From positions 62,001-126,000 of the forward strand of contig CAJTGJ010000001.1 of the NCBI GenBank assembly GCA_910575695.1: a stretch of DNA of 64,000 nucleotides. The letters run 5' to 3'. Source of the DNA: Oscillospiraceae bacterium. Its GTDB lineage: Bacteria; Bacillota; Clostridia; Oscillospirales; Oscillospiraceae. Shown one piece after another: positions 5,225 through 64,000 of the stretch (position 1 is the stretch's first letter; the number at the start of each line of letters is the position of its first letter). Position numbers and translations under genes: made by a program. Below the pieces are notes generated by a model. It was not told where the DNA came from, searched no databases, and saw only the letters and a program-made list of their open reading frames with translations.

Positions 5225-6076
5225 ATGGACAGACGGCCCATCGGCGTGTTTGATTCCGGCCTTGGCGGGCTGACCGCGGTGCGGGAGCTGGCCCGGCTCA
5301 TGCCGGAGGAGGACCTGGTCTATTTCGGCGACACCGGGCGGGTGCCCTATGGCGGGCGCTCCCGGGACATTTTAATCAAATATGCCCGGCAGGACACGGC
5401 GTTTCTGCGCTCCTTCGACCCCAAAGCCATCGTCATTGCCTGCGGCACCGTATCCACCACCGCCCTGGACGTGCTCCAGCGGGAGAACGATATCCCCATA
5501 TTCGGCGTGGTGGAGCCCGCCGTCCGCGCCGCCGCCCTGGCCTCCCAGAACCACCGGGTCGGCCTCATCGGCACCAGGGCCTCCATCCGTTCGGGGGCCT
5601 ACGAGCGCCTGCTGGCCCGGCTCCACCCCGGCGCGGAGGTCACGGCCCGGGCCTGCCCGCTGTTCGTCCCCCTGGTGGAGAACGGGCGGTTCCTCCCCGG
5701 CGACATTGTGGCGGAGACGGTGGCGGCGGAATATCTGGCCCCCATCCAGGCGGCAGGGGTGGACACTCTGATCCTGGGGTGTACCCATTATCCCCTGCTG
5801 AAACCGGTGATCGGGGCGTACATGGGACCGGGCGTCACCCTCATCGACGTAGGCGCCCAGTGCGCCCGCTGGACGGCGGAGCGGCTGGACCGGGCGGGCC
5901 TGCGCGCCGGCGGGACAGGGACGGGGCGGCACCGCTTTTACGTCAGCGACAGCACCGAGGACTTCGCCGCCCTGGCCTCCGTATTTCTGCGGGAGGACGT
6001 GGGGTCCGAGGTGGAGCAGATCGACATCACTGAGTATGAAGGAGCGGCCCGCCCGGCGGGAGCGGGGCAGGGCTGA
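5225..6076 (+). CDS. murI: Glutamate racemase
   Basis: 283 aa. Interconverts L- and D-glutamate, supplying D-Glu for peptidoglycan. The N-terminal signature GVFDSGLGGLTAVREL and YFGDTGRVPYG are textbook. The second catalytic cysteine is in LGCTHYPLL. The first lies in IACGTVSTTALD, where the family norm is ACNTxS: Asn is replaced by Gly while Cys and Thr remain. The start is the ATG eight bases after AGGGGGG; a GTG two codons earlier also exists. The next gene begins ten nt after the stop, suggesting an operon murI - DUF1934 - argS. Confidence 0.92.
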   Translation: MDRRPIGVFDSGLGGLTAVRELARLMPEEDLVYFGDTGRVPYGGRSRDILIKYARQDTAFLRSFDPKAIVIACGTVSTTALDVLQRENDIPIFGVVEPAVRAAALASQNHRVGLIGTRASIRSGAYERLLARLHPGAEVTARACPLFVPLVENGRFLPGDIVAETVAAEYLAPIQAAGVDTLILGCTHYPLLKPVIGAYMGPGVTLIDVGAQCARWTAERLDRAGLRAGGTGTGRHRFYVSDSTEDFAALASVFLREDVGSEVEQIDITEYEGAARPAGAGQG

Positions 6077-6086
6077 AAGGATTGCT

Positions 6087-6596
6087 ATGAACAACAATGT
6101 GATCATATCCATCAAGGGCAGGCAGCTGTACGCCGAGGGCATTCCCGAGGAAATGGAGCTGGTGACCTCCGGCACCATGAAGCGGGACGGCGCGGACGGG
6201 TACACGGTGACCTACCAGGAAAGCGAGCTCACCGGATTGGAGGGCACCACCACCAGACTGCTCATCAAGAACGGGCAGGTGACCCTTCTGCGGGAGGGGA
6301 ACATCAACTCCCAGATGGTGTTCGAGGAGGGCAGGCGGCACCTGTCCATGTACGAGACGCCCTACGGCGCGCTGTCCGTCGGCGTCAGCACCAAGCGGAT
6401 GCACTCCACTCTGTGCGAGGCGGGGGGCGATCTGGAGATCGACTACGCCATCGAGATCGACAATCTGATCGCGGGGCAGAACCTGTTCCGCATGAACGTA
6501 AAGAAAAACCCCGCCCTGGGCGTTCCTTTTTTCCGGGAGAAAAAGGAACCGAAAAAGAGCTTTCAGCCCGCTGCTGACAGGATGCATTTGAGTTGA
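6087..6596 (+). CDS. DUF1934 (YwiB-like) protein with repeat-derived C-terminus
   Basis: 169 aa. Family DUF1934 is a small beta-barrel protein; B. subtilis ywiB likewise sits just upstream of argS. Visible here: VIISIKGRQLYAEGIPEEME, VTYQESELTGLEGTTT and a paired LSVGVSTKRM ... GGDLEIDYAIEID strand pattern. The last ~20 residues (from about GVPFFREKKEPKK) are encoded by a dispersed hairpin repeat (family B) and are probably not part of the original protein. The start is the ATG after AAAGG, since residues before it overlap murI. Function unknown. Confidence 0.85.
   Translation: MNNNVIISIKGRQLYAEGIPEEMELVTSGTMKRDGADGYTVTYQESELTGLEGTTTRLLIKNGQVTLLREGNINSQMVFEEGRRHLSMYETPYGALSVGVSTKRMHSTLCEAGGDLEIDYAIEIDNLIAGQNLFRMNVKKNPALGVPFFREKKEPKKSFQPAADRMHLS
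6522..6566 (+). repeat. Dispersed hairpin repeat, family B copy 1
   Basis: The palindrome 6522-6549 (GTTCCTTTTTTCC / GAGAAAAAGGAAC) is followed by CGAAAAAGAGCTT. Related copies are at 16902 and 32748. This copy lies inside the 3' end of the DUF1934 gene. Confidence 0.7.
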
Positions 6597-6672: not shown

Positions 6673-8421
6673 ATGTCGAATTTGATTCAGGCCGCGCGGG
6701 AGCAGGTATCCCAGCTCACCCAGGCGGCGTATGAAAAGGCCGCGTCCGAGGGGCTGTTCCCGGCGGGGCAGGAGATCCGCGGTACCGTGGAGGTGCCCAA
6801 GGACAGCAAAAACGGGGATTTCGCGTCCTCCTTTGCCATGGCGGGGGCCAAGGCCCTGCGCATGGCCCCCCGGCAGATTGCCCAGATCATCCTGGACCAT
6901 CTGGAGCTGGAGGGCACGCTGTTCCAGCGGGCGGAGATCGCCGGGCCGGGGTTTCTGAATTTCTTCTACGCCCCCCGGTGGTACGGCGAGGTGCTGGGGG
7001 CGGTGGAGGAAGCCCCGGATACCTACGGGGCCTGCGGCGAGGGCGCGGGCCGGAAGGTGATGGTGGAATTTGTGTCCGCCAACCCCACCGGGCCCATGCA
7101 CATGGGCAACGCCCGGGGGGGCGTGCTGGGGGACACCCTGGCCAACGTGCTGCGCCGGGCGGGCTGGGACGCCTGGAAGGAGTTCTACATCAACGACGCG
7201 GGCAACCAGGTGGACAAATTCGCCCGGTCCATCCACGCCCGGTATATGCAGCTCATCCTGGGGGAGGACAATTACCCCTTCCCGGAGGACGGCTATCAGG
7301 GCGGGGACATCAAAGAGCTGGCCCAGGCGTTCTACGAGGCCCACGGGGACAGCTATAAGGATGCCCCCGAGGGCAAGTGGCTGGACGAAATGAGCCGTTT
7401 CGGGCTGGAACGCAACATCCCCAAGATGAAAGACGATCTGCGGAAGTACGGCATTGAGTACGACCAGTGGTTCTTTGAATCCGAGCTCCACGACAGCGGC
7501 TACGTGGCGGAGACGGTGGCCCTGCTCACGGAAAAGGGGTGGACGTACGAGAAGGAAGGGGCGCTGTGGCTGAACACCACGGAGCTTTTGAAGGAAAAGT
7601 TCATCCGGGAGGGCAAGACCCGGGAGCAGGCGGACAAGCTGGACCTGAAGGACGACGTGCTGCGCCGTGCCAACGGGTTTTACACCTACTTTGCCGCCGA
7701 CATTGCCTACCACCGGAACAAGTTCGAGAAGCGGGGCTTTGACAAGGTGATTAACGTGTGGGGCGCGGACCACCATGGCCACGTGGCACGGCTCCAGGCG
7801 GCGCTGGACGGGCTGGGGCTGGACGGCTCCAACCGTCTGGTGATCGTGCTGATGCAGCTGGTGAACCTGCTCCAGGACGGCAAGCCGGTGCGTATGTCCA
7901 AGCGGACGGGCAAGGCCATCGCCCTCCACGACCTCCTGGACGAGATCAGCGTGGACGCGGCCCGGTATTATTTCAACAACCGCGCGGCCACCAGCCCCCT
8001 GGATTTCGATTTGGATCTGGCGGTGCGGCAGGACAGTGACAACCCGGTTTACTACGTACAGTACGCCCACGCCCGGATCTGCTCACTGCTCACCCGCATG
8101 AAGGAGGCGGGGGCCGGCGTATGCCCCGCCCGGGAGGTTGACGCCTGCGCCCTGGTCCAGCCCGAGGAGCTGGCCCTGGTCAAAACCATCGCCCAGTACC
8201 CGGAGGAGATCCGTCTGGCGGCCCGGGACTGCGACCCCAGCCGGATCAACCGGTATCTGACCGCCCTGGCGGGGGATTTTCACCGCTTCTACAACGCCTG
8301 CCGCTGTATGGTGGACGACCCCTGCGTCCAGGCCGCCCGACTCAAGCTGGCGGACAGCGTCCGGCTGGTGCTGGCCAACGGGCTGGGCTTGCTGGGCGTT
8401 ACTGCGCCCAATAAGATGTAA
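6673..8421 (+). CDS. argS: Arginyl-tRNA synthetase
   Basis: 582 aa class I synthetase charging tRNA-Arg. The N-terminal Add-1 domain (residues 1-110) precedes the HIGH-type motif in ANPTGPMHMGNARGG. The KMSKS-like loop is VRMSKRTGKA, and the all-alpha DALR anticodon-binding domain with RYYFNNRA and YVQYAHARI leads to the C-terminal LGLLGVTAPNKM. Length is normal. The start has AGGAGAATGTACC upstream. Last gene of the murI - DUF1934 - argS group. It is followed directly by repeat R1 rather than by a recognised terminator. Confidence 0.97.
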   Translation: MSNLIQAAREQVSQLTQAAYEKAASEGLFPAGQEIRGTVEVPKDSKNGDFASSFAMAGAKALRMAPRQIAQIILDHLELEGTLFQRAEIAGPGFLNFFYAPRWYGEVLGAVEEAPDTYGACGEGAGRKVMVEFVSANPTGPMHMGNARGGVLGDTLANVLRRAGWDAWKEFYINDAGNQVDKFARSIHARYMQLILGEDNYPFPEDGYQGGDIKELAQAFYEAHGDSYKDAPEGKWLDEMSRFGLERNIPKMKDDLRKYGIEYDQWFFESELHDSGYVAETVALLTEKGWTYEKEGALWLNTTELLKEKFIREGKTREQADKLDLKDDVLRRANGFYTYFAADIAYHRNKFEKRGFDKVINVWGADHHGHVARLQAALDGLGLDGSNRLVIVLMQLVNLLQDGKPVRMSKRTGKAIALHDLLDEISVDAARYYFNNRAATSPLDFDLDLAVRQDSDNPVYYVQYAHARICSLLTRMKEAGAGVCPAREVDACALVQPEELALVKTIAQYPEEIRLAARDCDPSRINRYLTALAGDFHRFYNACRCMVDDPCVQAARLKLADSVRLVLANGLGLLGVTAPNKM

Positions 8422-8430
8422 GCGCCGCTT

Positions 8431-8734
8431 ATGGGCCCTGCCGGGGGCGTTACTTTTCCCACGTGGGAAAAGTAACCAAAAGGACGCTTAGGGGGAGGCC
8501 CGCCGGACCGGACGCTTGCGCGTCCTAAGGCGGGCCTCCCCCTAAGAACCCCCTGTTTTACGGGGGGCGCCCTATACGGGGAATGGGCGTACAGTTCCGG
8601 CGCGTGGGGCCGGGATGTATTCCCCCCTGTTTTCGCTGGCGCTTCCATGTTCCGTTACTGAGTGATGGGCGGGGTCCACGGACTGCGCCTGGGTGGGTGG
8701 ACCGTTTGCTCCATCGCGGCGGGGGTGGCTTCCC
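8431..8734 (+). repeat. Structured repeat R, copy 1
   Basis: Succession of hairpins: H2 28-nt palindrome centred on CACGTG (8449-8476); H3 with a perfect 18-bp stem (8487-8504 with 8529-8546) enclosing GGACGC/GCGTCC; H4 CCCCC/GGGGG (8549-8567). A less structured conserved tail follows, including CCTGTTTTCGCTGGCGCTT. It matches the reverse complements of 9563-9905 and 53221-53605. Confidence 0.85.
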
Positions 8735-8905
8735 CTATTCTGCCTCAATATATTGTTCCTCGGTGCTCTGCTGGGCCTGCTTTAACAAAGCGATGGCCTC
8801 AGCAGAGTTTTTGTTTTCCAGAAGCCATAATGCATCTGTGATGGCGTTAAAAAGTGTGCTGTACATCTTTTGATAGGGATTTGGCTTAAATTTTAATAAA
8901 CTCAT
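8735..8905 (-). CDS. 56-aa small protein of the repeat-flanked XRE module
   Basis: Frame MSLLKFKPNPYQKMYSTLFN... ending QSTEEQYIEAE. Predicted helical with an acidic end and no membrane segment. AGGAG lies eight bases before ATG, and a perfect promoter (TTGATA-N17-TATAAT) with an overlapping palindrome lies upstream, so expression is well supported. It is divergent from two XRE genes. Its stop lies at the inner edge of repeat R1. No family recognised; small size and XRE partner would suit a regulated toxin, antitoxin or effector, but nothing in the sequence decides. Confidence 0.65.
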   Translation of the reverse strand: MSLLKFKPNPYQKMYSTLFNAITDALWLLENKNSAEAIALLKQAQQSTEEQYIEAE

Positions 8906-8948
8906 GGCATTCACTCCTAAAAATTTTTATTGCACCAGTATAAGTGCA

Positions 8949-8977
8949 ATTATACTGCAACAATACGCTAATATCAA
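8949..8977 (-). promoter_or_regulatory. Promoter with palindromic operator
   Basis: Minus strand TTGATA (8977-8972), 17-nt spacer, TATAAT (8954-8949). The inverted repeat AGTATAA-gtgcaa-TTATACT (8937-8956) overlaps the -10, a likely XRE binding site controlling the 56-aa gene. Confidence 0.75.
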
Positions 8978-9019
8978 GCTAAAATTTGTGCGGATATAGG
9001 TGCAGATCGGGGTGATGGC

Positions 9020-9244
9020 ATGGACTATGCATATGACCTTGTCGTAGGCCAACAGATTCGGAGTGTACGGGAATCCCTTGGCCTGACCCAAGAACAGCTT
9101 TCCGCCCGGCTCCAGACCCACGGCTGTGATATAACCCGAAGCGCATTGGCAAAAATAGAGGCAGGCCAGCGCCACATCTATGCCATTGAACTGCGCACCC
9201 TGCGGGAGATTTTAGACGTTCCATACGAAACGCTGCTGCCATAA
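9020..9244 (+). CDS. XRE-family regulator 1 of the repeat-flanked module
   Basis: 74 aa, a lone Cro/C1 helix-turn-helix: QQIRSVRESLGLTQEQLSAR, then ITRSALAKIEAGQRHI as recognition helix, then ELRTLREILDVPYETLL. GGGGTGAT lies just before ATG. A paralogue follows at 9323 after a short terminator-like hairpin. Likely repressor of the divergent 56-aa gene via the 8937-8956 palindrome (inferred). Confidence 0.85.
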   Translation: MDYAYDLVVGQQIRSVRESLGLTQEQLSARLQTHGCDITRSALAKIEAGQRHIYAIELRTLREILDVPYETLLP

Positions 9245-9246
9245 AC

Positions 9247-9270
9247 CGGGGCAGTTTTCCCCGCCTTTTT
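9247..9270 (+). terminator. Short intrinsic terminator after XRE 1
   Basis: CGGGG ... CCCCG stem with a 7-nt loop, followed by CCTTTTT. Confidence 0.5.
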
Positions 9271-9288
9271 GGAGTACACCATTCATAA

Positions 9289-9304
9289 GCGGATAATAAT
9301 CCGC
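9289..9304. promoter_or_regulatory. Palindromic operator candidate before XRE 2
   Basis: GCGGATAATAATCCGC is a perfect 16-bp inverted repeat, 19 nt before the XRE 2 start. It resembles the 15241-15257 palindrome of another XRE module (both have CGGAT-core arms). Confidence 0.45.
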
Positions 9305-9322
9305 CCCTGAAAAGGTGATGAT

Positions 9323-9562
9323 ATGCAAAAACTGCGGCCGGATTTAGACATTGGGCATCGGATCGGGGATTTGCGCCGGGCGGCTGGGCTGACCCAGGAC
9401 CAGACCATAGCGAGGATGCAGTTGATGGAAATTCAAATATCAAAAAGCTCCTATGCCAAGCTGGAGACAAACCGCATGAATATCAAGATCAGCGAGCTGA
9501 TTGCCCTGCAAAAAATCTTCAAGGTGGATTTCAACGCATTTTTTGAGAACCTGGAGGAATAA
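9323..9562 (+). CDS. XRE-family regulator 2 of the repeat-flanked module
   Basis: 79 aa, a paralogue of the preceding XRE protein (shared pattern: G..I..LR...GLTQ.Q..AR, then S..AKLE..R.., then I.EL..L..I..V....FF). Ribosome binding site AAAGGTGATG. It may have its own operator (9289-9304). Its stop is immediately followed by repeat R2. Two tandem XRE paralogues with one small divergent gene suggest mutual regulation; partner DNA sites need binding assays. Confidence 0.85.
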   Translation: MQKLRPDLDIGHRIGDLRRAAGLTQDQTIARMQLMEIQISKSSYAKLETNRMNIKISELIALQKIFKVDFNAFFENLEE

Positions 9563-9905
9563 ACAAACCCCCACCCGAGCACCGAAAGCACGTCCCCCCA
9601 AGCACCGCACCCAGCCAGCCCCACCGCAGCAGGCGCTGAATCATGGACCCCACCCATCATCAGTAACCGGACCTGCCAGCGCCAGCGAAAACAGGGGGAA
9701 ATACGTCCCGCCCCCGCGCGCCGGACCCCCACCTCCGCACCGAAAGCGGCGAGCCCTTGCCCTTGACCTTACGGGGGATTCTTAAGGGGGCGGCCGTCCT
9801 TAGGACGCGAAGCGTCCGGTCCGGCGGCCGCCCCCTTAAGCGTTCTCTTTGGTTACTTTCTCTCACGTGAGAGAAAGTAACGCCCCCGGCAGGGGGACCA
9901 TGGGG
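9563..9905 (-). repeat. Structured repeat R, copy 2 (inverted)
   Basis: Reverse-orientation copy. H2 is a 30-nt palindrome at 9852-9881 and H3 has a perfect 16-bp stem (9781-9796 with 9825-9840). Relative to R1 and R3 both arms of H3 have changed together (AAGGGGGCGGCCG against AGGGGGAGGCCCG), so pairing is kept. Confidence 0.85.
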
Positions 9906-14955: not shown

Positions 14956-15213
14956 TTACCGAAGGGACGCGCCGAGATGGAAGCCGCAGACAAACGCCGC
15001 CTCCATATCCCAGCCACGCAGTTCCTCCCAGCCATCGCACAGGGCAGCAACGCGCTGGAACACATCGGGTGGGCAGGCTTTTTCCAGCGCCTCCCAGCTG
15101 CGGCTTACCATGTTGGCACATTCCTCCCGGTTTTGCCGAGCGTCTATGCCATAGCACCCTTCCAAACAGTACCTGCTGGCATACTCCCAAAGGACGTGGA
15201 CGACCTCTTGCAT
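14956..15213 (-). CDS. DUF6809-like small protein, inserted between infB and rbfA
   Basis: 85 aa, soluble and helical, with four to five cysteines. The C-terminal AAFVCGFHLGASL resembles the F..GF.LGA ending of DUF6809-type small proteins of gut Clostridia; assignment from memory only. The ATG at 15213 has AGGGGTGG upstream; a GTG at 15222 is possible. It is divergent from an XRE gene with a shared palindromic promoter region, as in the modules at 1.3, 8.7 and 59 kb. Function unknown. Confidence 0.6.
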   Translation of the reverse strand: MQEVVHVLWEYASRYCLEGCYGIDARQNREECANMVSRSWEALEKACPPDVFQRVAALCDGWEELRGWDMEAAFVCGFHLGASLR

Positions 15214-15240
15214 TTCTACCACCCCTATGATAAATTTAAT

Positions 15241-15306: not shown

Positions 15307-15525
15307 ATGTCAAATTTTTCTCTGCGCATGAAAGAATTGCGGAAAGAGCGAAATATGAAACAACAGGAACTTGCGGATACATTTTCTGTCAAACTGCGCA
15401 CTTATCAAGGTTACGAATATGGGGAATCCTACCCCGAGGCAGCAAAACTGATTGCCATTGCCGACTTTTTCGACGTCAGCTTGGACTATCTTGTAGGCCG
15501 CTCTGACATACGGGAACGGCAGTAA
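15307..15525 (+). CDS. XRE-family helix-turn-helix regulator
   Basis: 72 aa, Cro/C1 type: RMKELRKERNMKQQELADTF, recognition helix VKLRTYQGYEYGESYPE, then LIAIADFFDVSLDYLVGRS, a very typical phage-repressor-like ending. Its stop is 14 nt before rbfA, with the AAAAGGAGG of rbfA in the gap, so rbfA is probably read from the XRE promoter. Codon use is less GC-rich than the flanking housekeeping genes, a sign of acquisition. Confidence 0.9.
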   Translation: MSNFSLRMKELRKERNMKQQELADTFSVKLRTYQGYEYGESYPEAAKLIAIADFFDVSLDYLVGRSDIRERQ

Positions 15526-32762: not shown

Positions 32763-32805
32763 GTTCCTTTTTCTTGAAAGAAAAAGGAACCGAAAAAGAA
32801 CTTTA
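32748..32805 (+). repeat. Dispersed hairpin repeat, family B copy 3
   Basis: Stem GTTCCTTTTTC / GAAAAAGGAAC (32763-32790) with a second left arm (32748-32758) just before it, then CGAAAAAGAACTTT. The tetR stop codon lies between the two left arms. Confidence 0.75.
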
Positions 32806-32878
32806 TGCTCGCTGACGGGGCAGGGTGGTCTATGATAGATGACTGCCCGGCGGCGTAATGCGGTGTTGAAATACAAAA

Positions 32879-53220: not shown

Positions 53221-53605
53221 GGAAAGACTGACCGCCGTCCCCACCCCAATAGGTGCTCTACCGGCCAGAGCCCCCACATCCCACTGCTTTGAGTAAACGC
53301 GCCCCAGCCTCCACCGCGGCGAGTAAGGCCCACCGCAGGAGGCGCTGTGCGTGGACCCCGCCCATCACTCAGTAACCGAACATGGAAGCGCCAGCGAAAA
53401 CAGGGGAAAATACATCCCGGCCCCACGCGCTGGAACCAAACCACCAGCATCCCGTATAGAGCACCCCCGTAAAACAGGGGGTTCTTAGGGGGAGGCCCGG
53501 CCTGAGGACGCGAAGCGTCCGTCCGGCGGGCCTCCCCCTAAGCGTTCTCTTTGGTTACTTTCTCTCACGTGAGAGAAAGTAACGCCCCCCGCAGGGGCCC
53601 CCATC
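53221..53605 (-). repeat. Structured repeat R, copy 3
   Basis: Solitary copy between azlD and tuf, same orientation as R2. H2 30-nt palindrome 53554-53583; H3 16-bp stem (53484-53499 with 53527-53542) enclosing GGACGC/GCGTCC; H4 CCCCCGTAAAACAGGGGG at 53464-53481. It extends ~100 nt further in its tail than is clearly shared with R1. No gene in 53220-53668. Confidence 0.85.
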
Positions 53606-60783: not shown

Positions 60784-63700
60784 TTACTTCTTCCCGAAGG
60801 GCCACCAGCCCTTTTTCTCCTTCTTGGGCGCGGGGGCCGGGGCGGGGCGGGGGGCCGGAGCGGCTTTCACCGGAGCCGGGGCGCTTTCCCCCGGGTTCAA
60901 GCGCTCCAGAGCTTCCCGGGACTTCTTGTGCCCCTTGTCCGCCGCCTTCTGGTAGAACTTTTTGGCCTTCTCCATGTCCCGCTCCACGCCGGTACCCTTC
61001 TCATAGCACTGGCCCAGCAGGTACATCCCCCGGGCGCTGTCCTTCTCCGCGGCCCGCTGGAACAGGGCGGCGGCATGGGCCTGGTCCTGCTCCGCGCCGC
61101 AGCCCCGGAGGAAGCACTCCCCCAGGGAGCAGGTGCCGTCCATATGCCCGCCCTTATCCGCCAGGATGTACAGCCGCACCGCCTCGCCGGGGTCTTTTTC
61201 CACGCCGTAGCCGTTCTCGTAGCACTCGCCCAGCAGGAATTCCGCCCGGTGGTAGCCCTGCTCCGCGGCCTTGGCAAACCACTGCGCCGCCTGGGCGTCG
61301 TCCTCCTCCACGGCGATGCCGTGGTAGTAGAAGAAGCCCAGATTGCACATGGCCCGGGCATTGCCCCGCTCCGCCGCTTCGCGGTACAGCTCCGCCGCCC
61401 GCTTCTTGTCCTCCACCACGCCGTGGCCCAGCTCGTAGCACAGGCCCAGGGAGCAGGTGCCCGCGGCGTAGCCCCCCTCGTGGGAAACGGTGTACAGCCG
61501 GGCGGCTTCGTTGATGTCCTTTTCCACGCCGTAGCCATATTCGTAGCACTCGCCCAGCAGGTAGCGGGCCCGGGCGCTGCCCTGCTCCGACGCCTTGCGG
61601 AACCACTTCACCGCCTCCGCGTCGTTTATCTCCACGCCGATGCCCTGATAGAGGCAGTAGCCGTAATTGCACTGGGCCCAGGCGCTGCCCTGCCTGGCGG
61701 CCTCCAGGTAGAGCTGCGCGGCCCGCTCCCGGTCCATCACTACGCCCTTGCCGAACTCATAGCACACGCCCAGGGCGCAGGTGGCGCTGGGGTACTGCTG
61801 TTCGTGGGCCTTGCGGTACAGCTCCACCGCCTGTTCCATGTCCCGCTCCACGCCCACGCCGCTCTCGTAGCACTCGGCCAGCAGGTTCTGGGCCCGGGGC
61901 TGGCCCGCCTCGGCGGCTTTGACAAACCACTTTACCGCCTCCGCGCCGTCCTCCGGCACGCCGATTCCCCGGTAATAGCAGAACCCCAGATTGCACTGGG
62001 CCCGGACATAGCCCTGCTCCGCCGCCTGCCGGTACAGCTCCACCGCCCGGGGCAGATCCTGCTCCACGCCGGTGCCCAGCTCGTAGCACAGCCCCAGGGA
62101 GCAGGTCGCCGCCGGGAAGCCGGCCTCGTGGGACTTCTGGAACAGCTCAAAGGCCCGGGCCTCGTCCTGCTCCACGCCGTAGCCGTTGTCGTAGCACTCC
62201 CCCAAAAGCTGGAGGGCCCGGGGGTAATCCTGCTCCGCCGCCCGGGTGAACCACCGGACGGCCTCCTTGTCGTTCATCTCGGTGCCGATCCCCTGGTAGT
62301 AGCAGAAGCCCAGGTTGCACTGGGCCCGGGCCTCTCCCGCCTCGGCGGCCTTCCGATACAGCTCCACCGCCCGGGCCTTGTCCATCTCCACGCCGATGCC
62401 CAGCTCGTAGCACAGGCCCAGGGCGCAGGCGCCCTGGGGGTGGCCCTTTCCGTCCGCCTGTATGTACAGCTCCACCGCCTTTTCCGGGTCCTTTTCCACG
62501 CCGAAGCCGCCCTCATAGCACTGCCCCAGCAGGAACAAGGCCCGTCCGTGGCCCTGCTGGGCGGACTTTTCAAACCAGGCCGCCGCCTGGGCGTCGTCCT
62601 CCTCCACGCCGATGCCCCGGTAGTAGCAGTAGCCCAGATTGCACTGGGCCCGGGCGTCCCCGGCCTCAGCGGCCTGGGTGTAGAACCCGACGGCCCGGTC
62701 CAGGTCCTGTTCCACCCCCCGGCCCAGCTCGTAGCACAGCCCCAGGGCGCAGGTGCTGGGGGGATAGCCCCCCTCGCTGGCGGCCTGGTACAGGCGCACC
62801 GCCTTGTCCTGGTCCTGCTCCACGCCGTACCCGAAGTCGTAGCAGTCGCCCAGCAGGCCCAGGGCGCGGGGATAGCCCTCCTCCGCCGCCTGGGCGAACC
62901 ACTTGACGGCCTCTTTGTCGTCCACCTCGGCGCCGATGCCCCGGTAGTAGCAGAAGCCCAGGTTGCACTGGGCGGGCACGTAGCCCCGCTCCGCCGCCTC
63001 CCGGTACAGCTCCACCGCCCGGGGCATATCCTGCTCCACCCCGGCGCCCAGCTCGCAGCACAGGCCCAGGGCGCAGATGGCGGGGGGATAGCTGTCCTCC
63101 CCCTCGCTGGCCTGGGCGTACAGCTCCGCCGCCTTTGCCTCGTCCTTCTCCACGCCGTTGCCGTACTCATAGCACTGGCCCAGCAGGAAGATGCCCTTGG
63201 CGTACCCCTCTTCGGCGCACTGGCGGTACAGCTCCGCCGCCTTTTCCTCGTTTTTCTCCAGGCCGATGCCCCGGTCATAGCACACGCCCAGGGCGCAGGT
63301 GCCCGCGTCGTATTTCTGCTCGTGGGCGGCAAGGTACAGCTCCACCGCTTTTGCCTCGTCCTTGTCCACCCCCAGCCCGTTTTCATAGCACTCGCCCAGA
63401 AGGACCTGGGCCCGGGGGTACTCCTGCTGGGCGGCTTTGGCAAACCAGCCCACCGCCTCCTCATAGTCCTGGTCCAGCCCGATGCCCCGGTAGTAGAAAA
63501 AGCCCAGATTGCACTGGGCGGGGGGGTAGTCCTGCTCTCCCGCCTCCCGGTACAGCTCCGCCGCCCGCAGTTTGTCCATGTCAACCCCGGTGCCGATCTC
63601 GTAGCACAGCCCCAGCTCGCACTGGGCGGGGGGGTAGCCCTGCTCCGCCGCCAGGGCGAGCTGCTGCACGCCCTTTTCCGGGTTCTTTTCTGTGCCGATG

Positions 63701-64000
63701 CCCCGCAGCCAGCACAGGCCCAGGCCGTACTGGGCGGAGATGTGGTCCCCGTCCGCCGCCTTGACGAACCAGCGGAAAGCCTCCTCCCCGTCCCGGGGGG
63801 CGCCTCCGGTGCCGTTGCAGTAGTTCATGGCCACCTTGTACTGGGCGTCCAGGTCGCCCTCCTCGGCGGCCTCCAGCAGCTCCCGGAAGGACTGCTCCTT
63901 CTTGGCTGACACATCCGCCATGCTCTGAAGCACCTCGGGGCTGAAGTACACCATAACGGTGTCCTCGTCCTGCCCGCCGGAGGTGATGCCGTCGTTTCTC
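60784..64000 (-). CDS. Giant Sel1-repeat protein (possibly truncated by the window edge)
   Basis: At least 1056 aa from the Met at 63954; the frame stays open to the edge with protein-like residues (GITSGGQDEDTV), so the true start may be outside. About 27 consecutive 36-residue Sel1 repeats (pattern A..LG.CY..G.GVE.D..EAV.LY..AAE.GY). They fall into a repeating trio: CALGLCYELG, AQCNLGFCYYRGIG...KWF and A..LLGECYENGYGVEKD. No signal peptide. The C-terminus is a Pro/Ala linker and a Lys/Trp tail (KKEKKGWWPFGKK) that could touch a membrane or partner. Expected protein-interaction scaffold; partner unknown. Confidence 0.9.
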   Translation of the reverse strand, partial: RNDGITSGGQDEDTVMVYFSPEVLQSMADVSAKKEQSFRELLEAAEEGDLDAQYKVAMNYCNGTGGAPRDGEEAFRWFVKAADGDHISAQYGLGLCWLRGIGTEKNPEKGVQQLALAAEQGYPPAQCELGLCYEIGTGVDMDKLRAAELYREAGEQDYPPAQCNLGFFYYRGIGLDQDYEEAVGWFAKAAQQEYPRAQVLLGECYENGLGVDKDEAKAVELYLAAHEQKYDAGTCALGVCYDRGIGLEKNEEKAAELYRQCAEEGYAKGIFLLGQCYEYGNGVEKDEAKAAELYAQASEGEDSYPPAICALGLCCELGAGVEQDMPRAVELYREAAERGYVPAQCNLGFCYYRGIGAEVDDKEAVKWFAQAAEEGYPRALGLLGDCYDFGYGVEQDQDKAVRLYQAASEGGYPPSTCALGLCYELGRGVEQDLDRAVGFYTQAAEAGDARAQCNLGYCYYRGIGVEEDDAQAAAWFEKSAQQGHGRALFLLGQCYEGGFGVEKDPEKAVELYIQADGKGHPQGACALGLCYELGIGVEMDKARAVELYRKAAEAGEARAQCNLGFCYYQGIGTEMNDKEAVRWFTRAAEQDYPRALQLLGECYDNGYGVEQDEARAFELFQKSHEAGFPAATCSLGLCYELGTGVEQDLPRAVELYRQAAEQGYVRAQCNLGFCYYRGIGVPEDGAEAVKWFVKAAEAGQPRAQNLLAECYESGVGVERDMEQAVELYRKAHEQQYPSATCALGVCYEFGKGVVMDRERAAQLYLEAARQGSAWAQCNYGYCLYQGIGVEINDAEAVKWFRKASEQGSARARYLLGECYEYGYGVEKDINEAARLYTVSHEGGYAAGTCSLGLCYELGHGVVEDKKRAAELYREAAERGNARAMCNLGFFYYHGIAVEEDDAQAAQWFAKAAEQGYHRAEFLLGECYENGYGVEKDPGEAVRLYILADKGGHMDGTCSLGECFLRGCGAEQDQAHAAALFQRAAEKDSARGMYLLGQCYEKGTGVERDMEKAKKFYQKAADKGHKKSREALERLNPGESAPAPVKAAPAPRPAPAPAPKKEKKGWWPFGKK

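Follow-up and report, generated by a model that had tools for sequence, protein, structure and literature searches.

REP/REPIN elements are paired inverted hairpins in intergenic DNA that go with RAYT transposases, and in integrons small cassettes that can be interchanged lie beside folded sites. In mobile insertion cassettes (MICs), such as MIC231 of Bacillus cereus and mic-qnrD, a passenger gene lies between inverted repeats with no transposase nearby; the passages of PMC3913671 concerning them give the ends of mic-qnrD as imperfect repeats of 24 bp, and the MIC target as duplicated. TIMEs are presented in the corresponding part of PMC4133298 as 262 bp elements with Tn3-type ends of 38 bp and duplications of 5–6 bp. 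MITEs are AT-rich and measure approximately 30–300 bp in the sections of PMC3049150 and PMC10969869 that deal with them.

The locus described here belongs to a window of 64,000 nucleotides from an Oscillospiraceae genome, called G000 below; the other G-codes designate relatives, with one genome per species. Positions 8431–9905 of the window form a single element between argS, which ends at 8421, and rimP. Two inverted arms of approximately 300 nt enclose three genes, all read outward: a 56-aa gene on the minus strand and two XRE genes on the plus strand (Table 1). The arms, their folding and the three open frames were all found as in the preliminary description, which had reported a small-gene module framed by inverted structured repeats. 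The two arms showed 86% complementarity between 8596–8661 and 9660–9725, and 78% between 8467–8517 and 9810–9860. The outer stop codons were located approximately 16 nt (left) and 39 nt (right) from the edge of the arm profile. XRE1 and XRE2 matched HTH_3 and HTH_31/HTH_19 models, and shared 37% identity over 65 aa. The 56-aa gene has an alternative GTG start giving 59 aa. With the limits applied, Pfam, PHROGs and PADLOC gave no family for its product apart from a sub-threshold YfdX match; homologues were present in G026, G014 and G028.

Table 1. Features of the element and of the related lone arm in the window (arm-profile coordinates taken via loci L016 and L017).
Feature	Position	Strand	Remarks
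Left arm R1	8431..8730	+	outer end 8431; profile match ~8433-8719, 226 bits
Left-arm outer hairpin	8449..8476		12-bp perfect stem, loop ACGT
56-aa gene	8735..8905	-	ATG 8905, stop 8735; reads outward into left arm
Conserved operator-like inverted repeat	8931..8948		upstream of XRE1
XRE1, 74 aa	9020..9244	+	open frame
XRE2, 79 aa	9323..9562	+	open frame; reads outward into right arm
Right arm R2	9575..9905	-	outer end 9905; profile match ~9601-9898, 207 bits
Right-arm outer hairpin	9852..9881		13-bp perfect stem, loop ACGT
Lone arm, same family	~53308-53602	-	arm-profile match, 240 bits

The arms are visibly G+C-rich and strongly structured. The left arm folded better than all of its 200 shuffles (z −6.49) and the right arm better than all of its 100 (z −4.56). 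A known RNA family was ruled out, as no Rfam family covered either arm at gathering scores. Near the outer end, a perfect Watson-Crick stem of at least 10 bp was present in 104 of 109 arms, with 17 distinct stems, and 91 of these 104 arms had an N-C-G-Y loop; such a stem occurred in none of 2180 base-shuffled arm ends. Re-pairing of the stem halves gave a mean of 1.0 and at most 4 perfect stems against the 6 observed, a weak control because the inner 10-bp stems number only six distinct ones. Non-Watson-Crick stem cells amounted to 5 out of 923 in 74 arms (one being a G-T pair), in a count where the outer eight bases on each side were partly fixed by the search motif. RNAalifold, applied to 74 arms, mainly recovered the second hairpin. 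The near-perfect stems suggest that the outer hairpin may act as single-stranded DNA, or that the palindromes may get corrected. At loci L051, L052, L111, L112, L113, L214 and L224 of G027, the inner half of the arm (approximately 130–150 nt) was tandemly repeated beside full arms.

The genes around the arms were oriented with a crude gene caller. The outer end of 87 paired arms was faced by a gene 3' end in 40 cases (36 within 100 nt), by a 5' end in 34, and no gene was called in 13. For 26 lone arms, the corresponding numbers were 18, 7 and 1. The arms might be functional 3' ends of the cargo and host genes, terminators or RNA-stability structures, without any mobile unit. The strong folding, the outward-pointing cargo genes with their stops close to the arms and the 3' ends facing most lone arms would agree with such a role, yet the latter orientation is the reverse of a terminator read from inner to outer end. 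Perfect stems almost free of G-U pairs are unlike a typical RNA stem, 26 of the 44 pairs collected have no gene-sized cargo, and relatives lack arms behind the same genes. We consider this interpretation highly improbable.

The arm family belongs to one Oscillospiraceae genus. The arm search gave matches in 20 of 36 other genomes of the genus, and a single weak match (1.5e-4) in 23 genomes of other genera. The exact arm pattern, searched in the genomes of 84,980 species, was found in 34 stretches of seven MAGs, including S13_Bin1. Carriage by phages was rejected, with no match to the exact pattern in viral contigs, and so was carriage by plasmids, in which the left arm had no match. In G000, ten further inverted pairs were gene-less, approximately 630–680 bp in size with interiors of 63–65 nt, and four arms were alone; these counts are lower bounds because 40 of 50 first-look candidates were scored. 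Taking one of the ten as a reference, the nine others each paired a left-type with a right-type arm, 73–99% identical to it, which indicates that the pair multiplied as a pair. The lone copy at 53 kb, lying between what we take to be an upstream transporter-like gene and the end of tuf, had been considered a sign that the repeat spreads independently; the copy is real, but the repeat exists in G000 mainly as whole inverted pairs.

Almost all arm copies in the 5.06-Mb assembly of G000 were located on contig C1 (356 kb); C2 and C3 had a single site each. A chimeric bin was considered as a possible reason for this clustering, and sequence composition did not clearly decide for or against it. The tetranucleotide correlation with the window reached at least 0.87 for 13 of 18 stretches of other contigs and was lower for five; it was 0.82 for one C1 stretch. 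The rimP and lepA genes each matched once in G000. A shorter repeat, made of a hairpin followed by AACCGAAAAAGAGCTT, was seen at 6522–6573 and 32763–32814 of the window and has 15 copies in all on 10 contigs of G000; its first copy provides the final codons of the 6036–6596 frame. In G027, the counterpart of the framed 156.7-kb site of G000 has no arm and carries a related short hairpin repeat. Elsewhere in the window, a Twister-sister ribozyme match (81 bits) was found at 270–353 on the minus strand, and a long array of 108-nt repeats, coding-looking, at 60965–63735.

A total of 44 distinct inverted pairs was collected from at least 11 genomes, all of them draft assemblies in which the element ends are uncertain. 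Sampling favoured arm-rich genomes; in those with few or no matches, the reading concentrated on argS-rimP and lepA. The interior was shorter than 250 nt in the 26 pairs without gene-sized cargo, in which none of the four cargo families (XRE, RHH, DUF6809, 56-aa type) was found, and larger in 18. To these 18 were added five gene-bearing pairs, a selected set chosen where DUF6809 genes adjoin arm matches. A regulator, XRE or RHH, was present in 22 of these 23 gene-bearing pairs. Profiles detected XRE in 20 and RHH in one more, and the last of the 22 is L200, where the XRE gene lies in a frame missed by the coordinate filter. The only pair devoid of a regulator, L224, has a 333-nt interior largely made of repeated inner-arm sequence. 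A DUF6809-type gene was found in twelve of the 23 pairs and a 56-aa-type gene in five. In the usual cassette, an XRE gene (sometimes RHH) diverges from a DUF6809 or 56-aa-type gene, and the stops adjoin the arms. The other cargo that had been anticipated between other inverted pairs therefore exists, in the form of XRE, RHH and DUF6809 types. The Pfam model DUF6809 scored 34.7 bits at L049, above the cut-off of 27, and stayed below it at L052 (21.7) and at window positions 14959–15222 (25.9). Its name appeared in no paper of the literature searched, which comprised few subscription papers and no bioRxiv preprints, and the cassettes give this family a first genomic context. A known defence system was rejected as cargo, PADLOC giving only weak generic HTH matches in the cargo and none for the small proteins.

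An inverted repeat, TGCAC-N8-GTGCA, was located upstream of XRE1 at seven of seven distinct XRE1-type loci, from which the pattern itself was derived, and was absent from the remaining 275 of 290 fetched loci. Four of the seven loci, in three genomes, had no arms. The conservation of this operator-like repeat suggests that XRE1 may repress its own divergent promoters, which would make the cassette a self-regulated module; there is a weak possibility that it is of the addiction type. In G014, an XRE1-type cassette was present at a different site, adjoining htpG. At L063, L064 and L065 (G010 and G006), XRE1 relatives that share the operator diverge from a CCFTGHR-motif protein, presumably SLOG/DUF1273-like.

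DUF6809 matches were found in 39 of 60 genomes. An XRE gene was the neighbour of the DUF6809 gene in 17 of 17 cases near an arm and in 10 of 15 cases without one, indicating that the divergent pair forms an independent module, often but not always framed. An example without arms, 5 kb from the framed cassette, is the divergent DUF6809-like and XRE pair at window positions 14956–15222 (minus strand) and approximately 15307–15525 (plus strand), flanked by genes that we take to be infB and rbfA-like. It could be imagined that the XRE/small-protein pair is the real invader, and that the arms, as an intergenic repeat in their own right, came to lie around it later. The arm-less pairs, in the window, in the argS-rimP gap of G016 and elsewhere, would be explained in this way, as would the frequent XRE neighbour of arm-less DUF6809 genes, the wide occurrence of DUF6809 and the XRE1 relatives of G006, G010 and G053, which have no arms. 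Such an invasion is less easily reconciled with the 23 pairs holding cassettes between two inverted arms and with the sites at which both empty and filled frames occur, and we regard it as improbable.

The state of the argS-rimP gap was compared between species. Among the 37 genomes of the genus, G000 included, rimP was found in 36, and argS adjoined it in 19. The gap was empty, with a size of 115–341 nt, in 13 of these 19 genomes (G004, G007, G008, G012, G013, G015, G017, G022, G025, G029, G030, G032 and G033). Framed cassettes were present in four: 56 aa/XRE1, XRE2 in G000, 57 aa/XRE1 in G026, DUF6809/XRE in G005, and in G028 a different XRE with a 63-aa homologue of the 56-aa protein, the strands being swapped. 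G036 possessed a DUF6809-like/XRE pair with the left arm only, and G016 a similar pair with no arms. Only G026 shared the kind of cargo of G000. The preliminary description had expected relatives with an empty gap, and these 13 genomes provide them; the repeats do not stand at the same positions with the same genes in all relatives.

Altogether, nine sites were common to several species, argS-rimP and eight matched by their flanks, and their contents differed at five. The lepA site was gene-less in G000 and contained XRE in G002 and S13_Bin1 and DUF6809/XRE in G027; of 30 lepA ends, 27 had no arm and three were occupied, and the gene downstream of lepA varied. The mnmG site was gene-less in G000, with DUF6809/XRE in G002, G027 and S13_Bin1 and a different XRE in G028. 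Site F was gene-less in G000 and carried XRE in S13_Bin1. G027 and S13_Bin1 had gene-less pairs at site D, and G014, which is linked via one flank only, had cargo there. At sites E, G, H and I, the two genomes agreed in their kind of content. The 143.7-kb site of G000 was empty in G016, G032, G033 and G036; G022 had a single arm there, and G027 a pair. One site can be frameless, empty-framed, or framed around one of several small cassettes.

Between the close species G005 and G026, identity reached 99.3% in the argS flank, 97.4% in the left arm and 93.9% on the rimP side; the interiors were unrelated, with a switch at the inner arm ends. The right arms were alike only in approximately 100 nt adjoining the cargo. 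The contents thus change in place, since close species share a 97% identical arm around unrelated cargo, and the divergence of arms, cargo and flanks is uncoupled. Similarly, the identities of left arm, cargo and right arm were 77.7, 90.4 and 98.2% at site I, and 75.3, 94.1 and 85.4% between G002 and S13_Bin1 at the mnmG site. As a background, left arms of different elements showed a median identity of 73.9% and a 90th percentile of 80.6% (first 401 pairs, with no random draw), and arms at shared sites were often at this level (70–77%). Arms of the same genome were 80.7% identical in G000 and 80.4% in G027, compared to 73.1% between genomes. They were somewhat closer in S13_Bin1 (76.8%) and G030 (77.4%), and barely or not closer in G002, G005, G026, G028 and G036 (71.4–75.7%). 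The separate divergence of arms, cargo and flanks, together with the fixed sites, points to resident frames with exchangeable contents and not to one hopping composite.

We propose to view the element as one member of a family of frames that lack a transposase, in which two structured inverted arms of approximately 300 nt occupy gaps between host genes. In this model, recombination among the many dispersed arm copies would homogenise the arms and shuffle the cargo, and the formation of a new frame would need a hypothetical trans-acting enzyme recognising the hairpin ends. As an overall explanation, resident frames whose cargo is shuffled by inter-arm recombination stand, in our judgement, about evenly between right and wrong. 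The switch between G005 and G026 is sharper than what crossing-over of approximately 74% identical arms leaves, unless the donor carried these arms as well. Within-genome similarity of the arms is clear only in G000 and G027, the background-level identity at many shared sites would also be expected from repeated insertion, and arm-less cassettes exist. The clean G005/G026 border would also be compatible with an enzyme that cuts precisely. The arms may form a docking platform in two halves, at which a hypothetical enzyme, perhaps acting on single-stranded hairpins, would swap whole cassettes at the inner arm ends of fixed sites. This possibility, which we hold to be unlikely, implies an integron-like exchange in which palindromic frames dispersed across the chromosome encode no enzyme themselves.

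Target-site duplications, which the preliminary description had suggested looking for, did not exceed the permutation control once the end hairpin was left out. In 41 of the 44 pairs, leaving out the end hairpin, the mean longest word shared by the flanks was 5.59, against 5.53 (sd 0.18) after re-pairing, and 114 of 300 permutations were as high; the trimming removed 16 or 20 nt beside the hairpin, and the uncertain ends could hide a duplication. Trimming only 8 nt produced a slight excess (6.39 versus 6.12, with 18 of 300 permutations as high), probably coming from the shared end hairpin. As previously described for the element, none of the reading frames inspected between the arms was seen to encode a transposase. 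The Y1_Tnp profile had no match in G000. It was present in 17 of the 40 genomes searched, a set without G025–G036; the arm-bearing genomes G004, G007, G008, G015 and G019 had a match, and G002, G005, G014, G017, G021 and G022 had none. RAYT/REP mobilisation was consequently rejected as the current driver in G000, although some other arm-bearing genomes have the gene.

Transposition mobilised in trans, of the MITE or mobile-insertion-cassette type, into a few preferred gaps would account for the different contents by independent insertions. The background-level identity of many shared-site arms agrees with it, as do the whole pairs at ten other sites of G000, the occupation of only three of 30 lepA ends, and the short distance to the facing 3' ends (at most 100 nt for 36 of 40). 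It does not readily explain the nearly identical left arms of G005 and G026 around different cargo or the lack of duplication above the control, and no mobilising transposase was identified, Y1_Tnp being absent from G000. The 3' and 5' gene ends facing paired arms are nearly balanced (40 versus 34), so that a plain preference for positions behind stop codons does not describe the choice of sites. This mode of transposition is a possible explanation, in our view rather less probable than resident frames. The earlier proposal of a composite mobilised through its non-coding ends holds insofar as the cassette does lie between non-coding inverted ends, the pair recurs at the ten other sites, and an XRE1-type cassette is found beside htpG. 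Hopping as one unit is not in agreement with frames common to the same sites across species while the contents differ, nor with the duplication result.

Under the model of resident frames, transposase-less repeats, usually held to be passive debris, would persist as frames at housekeeping loci (argS-rimP, lepA, mnmG), with regulator genes inside them that differ between species. How very small regulatory modules spread and are replaced can thereby be tested.

Nothing matching framed exchangeable cassettes was found in the literature searched, within the scope given above. Compared to REPIN/RAYT systems, the arms are much longer, genes are carried as cargo, and G000 has no Y1_Tnp match. The comparison with integrons was considered because the cargo switches at the arm border; the present cassettes differ in being single, self-promoted, divergent and scattered over many sites. 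As far as the relevant sections of PMC3049150 and PMC10969869 describe them, the pneumococcal BOX and RUP repeats and MITEs are similarly intergenic, folded and modular, and the tandem inner-arm segments of several G027 elements resemble the variable number of boxB. The arms share with MITEs the inverted and multicopy arrangement, but are G+C-rich, form pairs of at least 600 bp and often frame genes; small size, AT-richness, terminal inverted repeats and duplication do not occur here as a set. In the TIME-framed composites of Tn3 origin, from the part of PMC4133298 that presents them, two non-autonomous elements likewise frame transposase-less DNA with varied modules inside, whereas the arms studied here have no detected duplication. 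By analogy, the element may work like a mobile insertion cassette: here too, passenger genes lie between two inverted repeats with no transposase among the frames between the arms. It differs from the MICs, to the extent that PMC3913671 portrays them, in its structured arms of approximately 300 nt, in the lack of a detected duplication, and in contents that differ between species at fixed sites.
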